Shown here one piece after another: positions 4,448 to 32,731 of a stretch of DNA of 33,041 nt (the first letter of the stretch is position 1; each line of letters begins with the position of its first letter). A program made the translations under genes and the position numbers. The stretch lies in NCBI GenBank assembly GCA_020343675.1, contig CP070806.1, positions 4,267,980-4,301,020 on the forward strand, written 5' to 3'. The notes beneath the pieces were generated by a model. It worked only from the letters and a program-made list of their open reading frames with translations. It did not search any database and was not told where the DNA came from. The stretch comes from Phycisphaerales bacterium. Its GTDB lineage: Bacteria; Planctomycetota; Phycisphaerae; Sedimentisphaerales; Anaerobacaceae.

Positions 4448-4836
4448 CGGCACGCCGGCGGTCCAGACCCGTCGATTTGTCCTATAAGCCTCCTGTTGAG
4501 TTTTGCCCGTGCGAGAGCTCATGCGCTCCGATCAGACCGCTTGTCGAAAATGACGTCGCGCACGGAAATCCTGGGGCGCTGGCGGGGTCTTCTCAGACCG
4601 GCAAAACGCCGGCATGCCCCAAGTTGCTCCTGTACCCAAAAAGTGCCCCGGCGGATGGGGATCGCCGATTTTATCAGAAGCGGGAGTATCCTTGCGCAGT
4701 CCCTCTCGGAATGAGCGGCCAATATTTTCGCCCCCATTTGGCTCTCTTGGGTTCTGTTTCATATATTTTAGTTGGTGTCGCAATTGTTGTCAGTAATGCG
4801 CAGGTAGATCATTTAGTTGAGGCGGTGAGTAAGACA
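4448..4836. other. Gap between gpsA and the pilus operon
   Basis: The frame of pilM is open through this stretch, but the translation (rich in Pro, Arg and Cys, with a stray hydrophobic patch) resembles no part of PilM. PilM proteins begin at the actin-like fold encoded from 4837. A possible promoter lies at 4738-4767. I see nothing else. Confidence 0.6.
4738..4767 (+). promoter_or_regulatory. Possible sigma-70 promoter of the pilus operon
   Basis: TTGGCT (4738-4743), an 18-base spacer and TATATT (4762-4767). This places the transcript start about 63 bases before the pilM ATG. No sigma-54 -24/-12 pattern was seen here. Confidence 0.4.
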
Positions 4837-5811
4837 ATGTTGGGGCTTCTGAAAAACCACGCATATTCAATCGGTGTTGACGTCGGGTATGACAGCCTGA
4901 GGCTCGCGCAGCTCGGTAGCAACGGCCACGGTCTGACCCTGATCGCCGGCAACCACAAGGACAGGCCCGGGAACGTCAATCCCGCCAGCAGCGACTGGCA
5001 GAAATGGGCGATTGACAGCATGCATTTGCTGGCTGCCTACGGCGACTTTCGCGGCAAAGAGGTCGTCGCCGCGATGCCGGCGAGTGAGGTTTTCATTGAT
5101 CACATAAAAAAGCCCAAGGTCGATGATGGCAAACTCCAGGAGACCGTCTTCTCGAAAGTCAAACAGAAACTTCCGTTTGAGTCTCTTCGAGAGAACACCC
5201 TGATGCAATACATCCTCATGGAAGAAGACAACGTCATGGTTCTGGCCACGGAGCGCAGGAAGGTGGACAGGAATCTGGCGATATATGAAGAGGCCGGACT
5301 CTCGATCAAGTGTATCGGTGTCTGGCCGGTTGCCCTGACAAACAGCTACATCAGGTTTTTTGGCCGGCGCAATTCCGACCTGAACGCGATTGTGATGCTC
5401 CTTTGCATCGAAGCCGATTGCACGAATGTTGTCGTTTGTCGCCACAGCAATCTGCTGTTGGCACGTTCGATCTCCGTCGGGTTCAGACGGTTGGATGATG
5501 AGCAGGCCGTCACAAGGCTGGTGATGGAGTTGACTGCGTGTAAGCGTCAGTTCAGCTTGATGTATCGAAACAGTCGCATAGAGCGTTTGCTTTTCCTTTC
5601 GGGTCGGGCGACGGACAAGGAAGTCTTTGCGACCATAGCAAGGCAATTGGAGATGCCGGCGCAGGTGGGAGACTGCTTGGCCGCCGTCGAGATAGCAAAA
5701 TCCTGTCGCATGGGAGCGGCCGAGGCGGACAAACAGGAGACCACGACTGTCATAGACAGAAGAGATCCGCGCGTCAACTGGGCGGTTGCTTTCGGATTGA
5801 GCCTCTTGTAA
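4837..5811 (+). CDS. pilM: Type IV pilus assembly protein PilM
   Basis: PilM is the cytoplasmic actin-like ATP-binding protein that binds the N-terminal tail of PilN and docks the inner-membrane alignment complex. The 324-residue product opens with MLGLLKNHAYSIGVDVGYDSLRLAQL, the characteristic PilM start in which IGVDVG is the phosphate-1 loop of the actin fold. It then shows VVAAMPASEVFIDHI and the PFESLRENTLMQYIL segment typical of the family. LLFLSGRATD near residue 255 corresponds to the later nucleotide-binding loop. The start at 4837 follows a weak purine-rich site (GAGGCGGTGAG). pilN begins 58 bases after the stop, so they are almost certainly co-transcribed. Confidence 0.9.
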   Translation: MLGLLKNHAYSIGVDVGYDSLRLAQLGSNGHGLTLIAGNHKDRPGNVNPASSDWQKWAIDSMHLLAAYGDFRGKEVVAAMPASEVFIDHIKKPKVDDGKLQETVFSKVKQKLPFESLRENTLMQYILMEEDNVMVLATERRKVDRNLAIYEEAGLSIKCIGVWPVALTNSYIRFFGRRNSDLNAIVMLLCIEADCTNVVVCRHSNLLLARSISVGFRRLDDEQAVTRLVMELTACKRQFSLMYRNSRIERLLFLSGRATDKEVFATIARQLEMPAQVGDCLAAVEIAKSCRMGAAEADKQETTTVIDRRDPRVNWAVAFGLSLL

Positions 5812-30625: not shown

Positions 30626-31000
30626 TTATCGCTCACCAATCCCACACCTGAGTTATATGCTCGACCGCCGACGCTTCCACATCTATCAGAATACAACATC
30701 CGACGCGAATTTTCAACTGTTTTTCTCATTTTACGGAATGGCGCGATGCAATGTTCAATAACAGGCGAAATCGTGCGGAATCCACATTCCTTGGCGAGAA
30801 TTGTGCCAAACTCCCTTTCCTCCAGCATTCATGGGAAGTGAAGGGATTCTCGAAAAGACTGCAATAGAATGGCAACTGTAACGTCTTTGGGCTGGGCAGA
30901 ACGGCGAGAATGCCATAGGATAAGGATGATCTCGGGATGCCCATTGGCCCTTGCCGGTCAGAGGGGCCAGACCATTGTCAGGCTGTGTGGGGAATTGGAA
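30626..31000. other. Divergent gap between HlyD and selenoprotein genes
   Basis: It holds the HlyD promoter. Plus-strand reading frames upstream of 31001 lack recognisable features, and I could not pick a convincing promoter for the selenoprotein gene. Confidence 0.5.
30688..30716 (-). promoter_or_regulatory. Promoter of the HlyD gene
   Basis: On the minus strand TTGAAA (30716-30711), a 17-base spacer and TATTCT (30693-30688). The leader is about 55 bases. Confidence 0.6.
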
Positions 31001-32731
31001 ATGAGAGGAATCTTCAGAAGAACTGGCCCAAACATCGCCGGAGGAGTGGCCTTGCTCTGCATTGCGGCTTTGATGCTCATACTCTCCCGGCCTGGCCGGA
31101 CGGCGGCGCGCTCCAGCGGCCGGACGAGGGAATGACCGAGTCGCAGTGCCGACAATCCTCTGGTCAAGCCCGGCGAGTATCCGCCCGATTTCGATCTGCC
31201 CAAGTTGACTCTTACAACCGGTGCCACCGGAAAATCCATCGGCGTCATAAGTGCAAAGGGCAGGATCAGACTCTCTTCGTTCAGAGGCAAGAAACCGGTA
31301 TGTCTGATTATGTCCAGCTACACGTGACCGCCTTTCACGTCCCGCGCGGCGGAGATGGAAAGGTTGTACGCGTCGTACAACGATCAGATAGAGTTTCTTG
31401 TCGTTTATATCCGCGAGGCTCACCCCGAGATGCTGAAAGAGGGCAACAGAACCGGAATCGTGGGCCGGCCCAAGGATTTGGACGAGCGGGTCATCCTGGC
31501 CACCGAGTGTGTGAGCAAGTACAAGCTCACGATACCGATGGTCATCGACGGCATGGAGGGCAAAGTCAACAGCGACTATCAATCCTGGCCCGTGCGCGTT
31601 ACCGTTACCGACATTGACGGCAAGGTTGTGTTTTACGGTGCCCCCGGGCCGTCCGGCTTCAGACTTGCCCCCGTCGAGCGAGTCCTGAAGAAGCTTAGCT
31701 CCAACGGGGGCCGTCTTCCACCGCCGCCGGAGCCGAAATGGAGTCAGGCGGCCAATGGCTTGCGATGCGGGCTCAGCATCGATCCGGAGAACCTGGTCAT
31801 TGGCGAAAAGGTTGCCATCCAGTTGAGATTTGAGAACACAACGGACCGACCTGTTGGCTTCTATTACCGGCCGAGTGACGTCGTCAAGAACATTGCCATC
31901 AACAACGGCGCCGGACAGACTCTGCACGCCGAAGCTCCCGGCGGGCGCCGGTCTCGTATGGGCAGACGGGGCGGTAGTCCGATCCGGAGAATCGCGCCCG
32001 GGCAGACATTTGAAACCGAAATTGAGGGCAGAATCGTTGCTGGTTCCGGCGAGGTGGCATTTGCCGCCGGCCGGTTTGACGCCGTTTATAATCTCGAAGT
32101 GGATGAGGCAACGCTGGTGCAGGCTCAGCTGCGTCCCGCTCAAAGCCTCTGGACAGGCAGGCTAAGTTCAGGCACGTTCACCCTCGACATTGCCGCACCG
32201 CCGCCGGCGGGATGCATGGATTGTCATGGAGACGGAGATTATCATCACAAGGAAAACGAGAACTGTGAAGAGTGTCATGTCGGAGAGGTTGGCAGCGAGA
32301 ATTTCGGAACCAAAGAGGGGTCATGTGCTCGCTGTCACCCGCGAGAGGACGTGTATGGCCGCCGGCAAATCCTTGGGCCGGGTGGAGAATTCGACATGGT
32401 TTCGAAACACTTCTCCGACACGATCGAGGACAAACACTGCTTTTTCTGCCACGATAACAGCCGGCATCGCACAGGCGTGGTGAGCCTGATTGACCCGGAT
32501 TCCGGAAGAGCCAAACCGTGGACGGGCACACGCACCGGTTTTTGCCTGACCTGCCATGATGGCGAGCCGCCCGGTCACATATCTTTCCCGGATAGGTCCG
32601 GCGGCTCCGGCTTCGACAAAATGAAGTTTTCAGGCTCGCGTCTGTCGCAGATTGAGGAAGGTTGCAGTTACTGTCACATGCCTCATGGTTCGCCCTATCC
32701 GTCACTACTGAAGGACCTGCACGGTCATTGA
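31001..32731 (+). CDS. Predicted selenoprotein: deiodinase-like domain fused to six-heme cytochrome c
   Basis: Read through two TGA codons, this is one 576-residue frame. Residues 1-44 are a basic start and membrane anchor (ATG 31001, GGGGA seven bases upstream). TGA at 31133 is codon 45. Residues about 54-230 form a thioredoxin/peroxiredoxin-like fold: KPGEYPPDFDLPKL, then LSSFRGKKPVCLIMSSYT, TGA as codon 109 (31325-31327), then PPFTSR and FLVVYIREAHP (EAHP at 139-142), as in iodothyronine deiodinases where Sec sits before P-x-F. Residues 255-395 are beta-rich. The tail has six CxxCH sites at 405, 422, 442, 480, 515 and 555. The final stop is also TGA. A SECIS-like hairpin follows codon 109. 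It is probably a periplasmic selenol redox enzyme with heme-delivered electrons; the substrate is unknown. The TGA at codon 45 leaves the N-terminus open. Confidence 0.75.
31325..31327 (+). other. In-frame TGA, predicted selenocysteine codon
   Basis: The TGA lies inside SYT-U-PPF, where the deiodinase family has its catalytic Sec or Cys. The frame stays homologous on both sides of the codon, which argues against a true stop. Confidence 0.8.
31331..31363 (+). promoter_or_regulatory. Candidate bacterial SECIS element
   Basis: Starting four bases after TGA: CCTTTC (31331-31336) pairs with GAAAGG (31358-31363). After a bulged A, CGTC (31338-31341) pairs with GATG (31354-31357), with one G-U pair. 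CC (31342-31343) pairs with GG (31351-31352). The apical loop is GCGCGGC, and its first G is 17 bases after the TGA. Length, bulge, loop G and distance all fit the SelB-binding hairpin seen in bacteria. Confidence 0.7.

Follow-up and report, generated by a model that had tools for sequence, protein, structure and literature searches.

A predicted selenocysteine-containing deiodinase-like protein fused to a hexaheme cytochrome domain, with a candidate long-spacer SECIS hairpin, in a planctomycete genome

We propose that a gene of a Phycisphaerales bacterium (assembly GCA_020343675.1, contig CP070806.1) encodes a true selenocysteine-containing member of the deiodinase family that is fused to a hexaheme c-type cytochrome domain, a reading to which we give a probability of about 0.85. 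The gene lies in the window, by which we mean the whole stretch of 33,041 nucleotides that was analysed (positions 4,267,980 to 4,301,020 of the contig). The original prediction had described a deiodinase-like selenoprotein there and had omitted the hexaheme fusion, a second in-frame TGA and a displaced hairpin downstream of the predicted selenocysteine (Sec) codon.

Bacterial deiodinase-like proteins as such, in both Sec and Cys forms, were reported in 2005 from the Sargasso Sea set (PMC1088965). A 2026 review lists the bacterial family with the motif UxxC (PMC13188914), and planctomycete selenoproteins have been noted before (PMC4807772). In the literature searched, no description of a deiodinase-cytochrome selenoprotein was found, and both the deiodinase-hexaheme fusion and the displaced hairpin look new.

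Reading frame and gene features

Read directly, the frame runs from the ATG at 31001 to the TGA stop at 32729-32731 (...PPDFDLP...LSSFRGKKPVCLIMSSYT-TGA-PPFTSRAAEMERLY...FLVVYIREAHP) and has 577 codons including the stop, given read-through of the TGA at 31325. The full-length gene also requires that a TGA at 31133 be read or be absent, since this codon interrupts the frame between 31001 and 31325. Around the TGA at 31325, which is codon 109, the sequence reads as had been described. The features are as follows.

31001..32731, plus strand: full gene for a predicted signal-anchored deiodinase-like selenoprotein with a hexaheme cytochrome c domain (direct read; full-length homologues L054 and L055)
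31001..31132, plus strand: predicted N-terminal signal/anchor (MRGIFRRTGPNIAGGVALLCIAALMLILSRPGRTAA...), its start orthologous to the start in relatives
31133..31135, plus strand: second in-frame TGA, codon 45, in the variable linker between anchor and domain, absent from all relatives
31277..31696, plus strand: T4_deiodinase (PF00837) thioredoxin-fold domain, residues 93-232 (profile match, E 2e-18; the fold matches Dio2 and Dio3)
31325..31327, plus strand: UGA codon 109, predicted selenocysteine at the Dio Sec170/Sec130 column, S-Y-T-U-P-P-F (homologue alignment, Dio profile match)
31363..31381, plus strand: conserved RNA hairpin GTTGTACG[CGT]CGTACAAC, candidate long-spacer bacterial SECIS (conservation in the order, covariation)
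31406..31423, plus strand: codons Y136..E139-A-H141 (VYIREAHP), at the positions of the Dio2 proton-relay residues Tyr157, Glu160 and His162, invariant in 16 homologues
31760..32194, plus strand: middle beta-sandwich-like domain, residues about 254-398 (AlphaFold2 strands, mostly of high pLDDT)
32213..32677, plus strand: hexaheme c-type cytochrome domain, with CXXCH motifs at residues 405, 422, 442, 480, 515 and 555
30755..32143, minus strand: spurious antisense ORF of 462 aa (ORF list; sense-strand constraint)

Between this genome and four relatives, dN/dS is 0.05-0.19 for the segments before and after the UGA, the middle domain and the cytochrome domain, with the exception of two comparisons to G098 in which dS is saturated; the high synonymous divergence makes these ratios rough. 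Judged from them, every segment of the gene with computable dS is under purifying selection. The nearest full-length homologues, L054 and L055, show 67% and 66% identity and have one TGA each.

The UGA causes gene callers to truncate or to miss this family. Two frames that had been named as possible choices of a standard caller do exist: the ORF starting at 31355 gives 458 aa, and the 462-codon antisense frame can be rejected as a gene, the sense strand being the constrained one.

Conservation of the predicted selenocysteine codon

In the order to which the bacterium belongs, all 17 members of the family (this genome and 16 others) have exactly one TGA at the Sec column of the deiodinases, where the count refers to that column and this genome has the TGA at 31133 in addition; the context is always SYT-U-PPF. 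In the wider phylum, members were found in 107 of 392 sampled genomes, most with one TGA, and those with a strong match have the TGA at the column in nearly all cases. Both phylum members without the TGA that were read have Cys there, namely L110 (NFTCGPF) and L084 (LTCPVAR), the latter a distant member of the same family. The homologues with Sec or Cys that had been expected to align at codon 109 were thus found, and the claim of a true selenoprotein is borne out by this column. From these comparisons, the UGA at 31325 is almost certainly decoded as selenocysteine, and we infer that Sec is inserted at codon 109 in vivo.

In some genomes of the phylum (G314, G217, G303 and others), the number of Sec deiodinase-like genes is between two and five.

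Selenium machinery and gene neighbourhood

The sel genes had been expected in the same genome, and the expectation holds for selA (550 bits in the profile search, complete), for selD (365 bits, complete) and for the start of selB, whose GTPase domain follows directly after selA and is cut by a join of 100 N, the SelB C-terminus not being seen in the assembly. It does not hold for selC: a tRNA-Sec was not found in this genome by the Rfam search or with the tRNA sequence of a relative as the query, and the sub-threshold Rfam matches that were read are tRNAs for Ser, Leu, Tyr, Trp and Arg. Of 13 selC loci in relatives (L034-L046), 11 have a NapH-like gene 299-380 bp downstream of selC. In this genome, the orthologue of that gene (72% identity) is preceded, at a distance of about 172 bp, by a join of 100 N. 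Since the contig ends where the relatives carry selC, the missing selC of this genome most likely falls in an assembly gap.

A tRNA-Sec is above the cut-off in 12 of the 16 other genomes with an intact deiodinase-like gene; among the first 59 relatives it was detected in 5/5 genomes with an intact gene versus 9/54 without one, a single match of these nine being marginal and short. In G016, which has a decayed copy, it was not found. That copy (L059; G016:C141, about 4760-5444, minus strand) has two TAA codons, a replaced SYTU active site and a shifted frame, and still keeps the hairpin TTGTACGTGTCGTACAA.

The 5.06-Mb sequence of this genome consists of contigs joined by 100 N (for example L018 159-258, 2942-3041 and 5721-5820), partly in falling order of size and steadily so around 1.73 Mb. 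Gene order across the N runs is therefore not real. The window itself ends exactly at such a join.

In the window, the upstream neighbour of the selenoprotein gene is of the HlyD type and is encoded on the opposite strand. Among relatives, the NapH-like gene directly precedes the deiodinase-like gene in at least seven loci, and in L054 and L055 it is flanked by selC on one side and by the selenoprotein gene on the other, in the same orientation. Its likeness to the NapH/MauN family of ferredoxin-type proteins consists in matches of the protein (P0002) to TIGR02163 and Fer4_5, besides Fer4, the score being below the NapH cut-off; in contrast to that family, the linkage here is with selC and the selenoprotein, not with nitrate reductase. 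The pairing of selC with the NapH-like gene is also seen in genomes of the order where the selenoprotein gene was not found.

Two other readings of the TGA at 31325 bear on this machinery. One is that a Cys codon of an ordinary Cys redoxin appears as TGA through an assembly error or a point error, for which one could cite the Cys homologues in the phylum and the lack of a detected tRNA-Sec in this assembly. Against it, the identical TGA recurs within the order in 16 further genomes, each assembled independently, and in most members of the phylum, and SelA, SelB and SelD are present, so that we consider an error at this site to have hardly any chance of being right. The other, to which we give still less credence, is that TGA is reassigned genome-wide, for example to Trp, rather than recoded. 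Two TGAs would indeed be read in one frame, but the gene's own terminator is the TGA at 32729, the column is Cys or Sec and never Trp in the homologues read, the tRNA-Trp that was found carries the anticodon CCA, and selA, selB and selD are there; on these grounds the decoding of TGA as Trp was rejected. Decoding of the UGA at 31325 as Sec is the reading kept below.

It is noted that the SelD of this genome (L020:985-2592, minus strand) is extended at its N-terminus by a Cys-rich segment and carries, fused to its C-terminus, a carboxymuconolactone decarboxylase/AhpD-like domain (PF02627, E 2e-15); a gene for a BadF/BcrA-type ATPase adjoins it.

The second in-frame TGA

Codon 45 is TGA only in this genome among the relatives compared, and the codon, if real, would halt translation. 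A role as a second functional Sec codon is unsupported, as the position lies in the variable linker and the TGA is unique to this genome. An explanation that takes the codon at face value is that the Sec gene family is real while this copy is a recent pseudogene by a nonsense mutation at codon 45. The uniqueness of the in-frame TGA agrees with it, as does the decay seen in the copy of G016, and there is no ATG, GTG or TTG start between codon 45 and codon 69 from which the export signal could be preserved. By contrast, the reading frame of 577 codons is free of any other stop or frameshift, all segments are under strong purifying selection, and the catalytic and heme motifs are intact. Moreover, an assembly error of one base is the simpler explanation, given a metagenome-type assembly joined by 100-N spacers. 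We thus regard the pseudogene as improbable, though much less so than an error at codon 109, and the TGA at 31133 is probably a base error or a strain mutation in an otherwise functional gene.

The deiodinase-like domain

The match to PF00837 spans the TGA (residues 93-232, E 2e-18, 67 bits against the curated cut-off of 27), so that the claimed pattern with TGA at the Sec/Cys position is recovered by the profile. When a profile of six homologues was searched against the PDB, only mouse Dio3 (4tr3) and Dio2 (9h48) were matched, both with E 3e-19, with the TGA aligned to their Sec column, which is Cys in the crystal constructs; the window protein alone matches Dio3 with E 2e-14 and Dio2 with E 9e-9, both across the TGA. 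The NCBIfam profile NF038285 (deiodinase family protein) is matched with E 2e-35 over its C-terminal 150 positions, with 122.7 bits and thus below its cut-off of 250. AhpC-TSA and Redoxin profiles also match, weakly. A scan of genome contigs gave only one distant thioredoxin-like match, in Methylophaga.

The AlphaFold2 model has high confidence over residues 7-269 and over most of 279-356 in the modelled piece (window residues about 52-401), while in the multiheme part the pLDDT is 30-40 and the model is unusable there. The closest solved fold is Dio2 (9h48; Z 20.1 over 170 residues at 3.1 A), the next is Dio3 (4tr3; Z 19.0 over 172 residues at 4.9 A), and the other thioredoxin folds ResA, AhpE and Prx follow with Z of about 17. 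The relay residues of Dio2 are Ser127, Thr129, Tyr157, Glu160 and His162 (PMC11592359), and all five positions are invariant in 16 homologues. By contrast, the second relay His of Dio2 (His182) and the loop-D Trp167 are not kept, the aligned residues being Pro and a non-Trp residue. There is no resolving Cys of the UxxC type, the motif being UPPF.

The original prediction of a deiodinase-like protein is thus supported for the fold and the catalytic core but not for the activity, and thyroid hormone is not expected to be the substrate of the bacterial protein. As to what the substrate is, an alternative that competes with this part of our explanation only is that the enzyme has the deiodinase fold but works as a peroxidase or thiol-disulfide redoxin and not as a dehalogenase, the likeness to Dio reflecting a shared peroxiredoxin-like ancestor. 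The best matches in both sequence and fold, Dio2 and Dio3, and the retained Ser, Thr, Tyr, Glu and His of the relay argue against this alternative; the weak AhpC-TSA and Redoxin matches, the place of ResA, AhpE and Prx next after Dio in the fold list, the loss of the thyronine-contacting positions (the loop-D Trp and the second His) and the different function that was expected for bacterial members (PMC1088965) argue for the redoxin. We hold the chances of the redoxin to be even. The substrate class is put forward with less certainty than the membership of the deiodinase family.

The middle and hexaheme domains

Six CXXCH motifs lie within residues 405-559, in the C-terminal third of the protein, and all six are invariant in the homologues. 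Paired_CXXCH_1 is over the cut-off in the window protein, and an MtrC/MtrF-like match is below the cut-off in the window protein and over it in L054. For the middle domain, the profile search with the window protein gave no Pfam match. The hydrophobic N-terminal stretch suggests that the protein is exported.

The six CXXCH motifs occur in 10 of 17 members in the order and in none of the 28 members checked in the phylum, so that the fusion is specific to the clade, and the catalytic domain is found by itself as well. Since several members in the order are without the heme domain, the core reaction does not need it.

The hairpin downstream of the UGA

In the published model of the bacterial SECIS (bSECIS), the stem has 4-16 bp, the loop has 3-9 nt with a G in its first two positions, and the spacing from the UGA to the loop is 16-37 nt (PMC13188914). 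All 17 members in the order have a perfect hairpin, YTGTACG[YGT]CGTACRR, with the loop at +44 to +46, 43 nt from the UGA. With a stem of 8 bp and the loop CGU, the hairpin of the window fits the published stem, loop and loop-G criteria, whereas the spacing of 43 nt is outside the published range in 17/17. Outside the order, all 28 Sec deiodinase genes have a hairpin with the loop 17-26 nt after the UGA, as the bSECIS model has it. A proximal hairpin can also fold in some members in the order, including this genome.

Computed on 13 non-redundant members in the order, complete conservation of synonymous codons is confined within the domain to codons +14 to +17 (TAC, GYG, TCG, TAC), and the six-codon window at the hairpin is 4.4 SD above the mean conservation of the domain; the same codons show no excess conservation outside the order. 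In the stem, pair 2 changes from T-A to C-G and pair 3 from T-A to T-G. There are 7 cells with a change on both sides where 2.2 are expected, and none of 500 shuffles is as high, a comparison to be read with caution on account of relatedness.

Elsewhere in the genomes the hairpin motif occurs at about the chance level, being about as frequent as a reversed control pattern. The further copies read within the order sit in ordinary coding frames or have no sensible in-frame TGA, and the hairpin as a general SECIS motif was rejected.

Based on these data, the hairpin at 31363-31381 is an RNA element that we favour, with some reserve, as a displaced SECIS. The hairpin, at +36 to +54, could instead be a different kind of RNA element or a DNA element, or could arise from codon use in the conserved LYxSY peptide. 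Leu-Tyr-x-x-Tyr-Lys tends to yield TGTAC...GTACA, partly similar hairpins are seen in a few members outside the order, and the proximal fold is available in some members within it. It would then be hard to account for the synonymous invariance of codons +14 to +17, which are unconstrained outside the order, and for the covarying stem pairs; moreover, all 28 genes outside the order have the bSECIS-like hairpin at +17 to +26. We consider a non-SECIS origin the lesser of the two, at somewhat under one chance in three, and take the distal hairpin as the candidate SECIS.

Discussion

In the mechanism that we propose, the gene product would be an exported, membrane-anchored selenoprotein. The UGA at 31325 would be decoded as Sec by SelA, SelB and SelD with a tRNA-Sec hidden in the assembly gap, and in this order the hairpin 43 nt after the UGA, versus the usual about 20 nt, would probably direct the insertion. 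The Sec would be placed in a deiodinase-type thioredoxin fold with the core Ser-x-Thr-Sec-Pro, Tyr, Glu and His kept, where it may attack an extracytoplasmic substrate, which would be a halogenated aromatic or a peroxide. Once oxidised (Se-X, Se-OH or Se-S), the Sec would most likely be re-reduced by the hexaheme domain of the same chain, which in turn may be fed by the NapH-like protein, a putative quinol-oxidising Fe-S protein that is encoded adjacently in relatives. Proteins of the NapH type pass electrons from quinol towards c-type cytochromes. On this account, the most economical route would be from quinol to the NapH-like protein, to the hexaheme domain and then to Sec, a route that we put only slightly ahead of its alternatives.

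Compared with the bacterial deiodinase-like selenoproteins known so far (PF00837, NF038285), the fold, the Sec column and the occurrence of both Sec and Cys forms in bacteria are shared, whereas the window protein has in addition the middle beta domain and the hexaheme domain, UPPF instead of UxxC, and the displaced hairpin. With vertebrate Dio1-3 (4tr3, 9h48) it shares the thioredoxin fold, T-U-P-P-F, VYI-EAHP, the relay Ser/Thr/Tyr/Glu/His and the membrane anchor; it differs by the heme domain and by having neither the loop-D Trp nor the second His, and its candidate SECIS is an in-frame hairpin while that of vertebrate Dio lies in the 3'UTR. Multiheme cytochrome selenoproteins, namely ExtKL and the octaheme tetrathionate reductase family (PMC13188914), likewise combine Sec with several c-type hemes per protein. 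However, these are listed as cytochrome families themselves, whereas here the Sec is in a separate deiodinase-like domain.

The fusion of a Sec domain with c-type hemes suggests an electron source for a bacterial deiodinase-like enzyme, which bears on the function of bacterial deiodinases and on the origin of the animal ones. If the SECIS role of the distal hairpin is true, current bSECIS searches would miss genes, because a hairpin beyond the range of 16-37 nt is fixed in a whole order. It would also mean that the spacing between UGA and SECIS can evolve, presumably together with SelB, the outgroups having kept the normal hairpin. More tentatively, and with odds that we put clearly below even, the order may have moved its SECIS about 20 nt downstream, as a long-spacer class with its own SelB, for a quinol-wired (hexaheme and NapH-like) deiodinase of respiratory or detoxifying and possibly dehalogenating function.

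Finally, we note that the middle and hexaheme domains also occur together as a stand-alone homologue (L060/L030; G017:C78:26736-28004), which has its own N-terminal anchor and no deiodinase domain; elsewhere in the same genome a tRNA-Sec lies beside a NapH-like gene.
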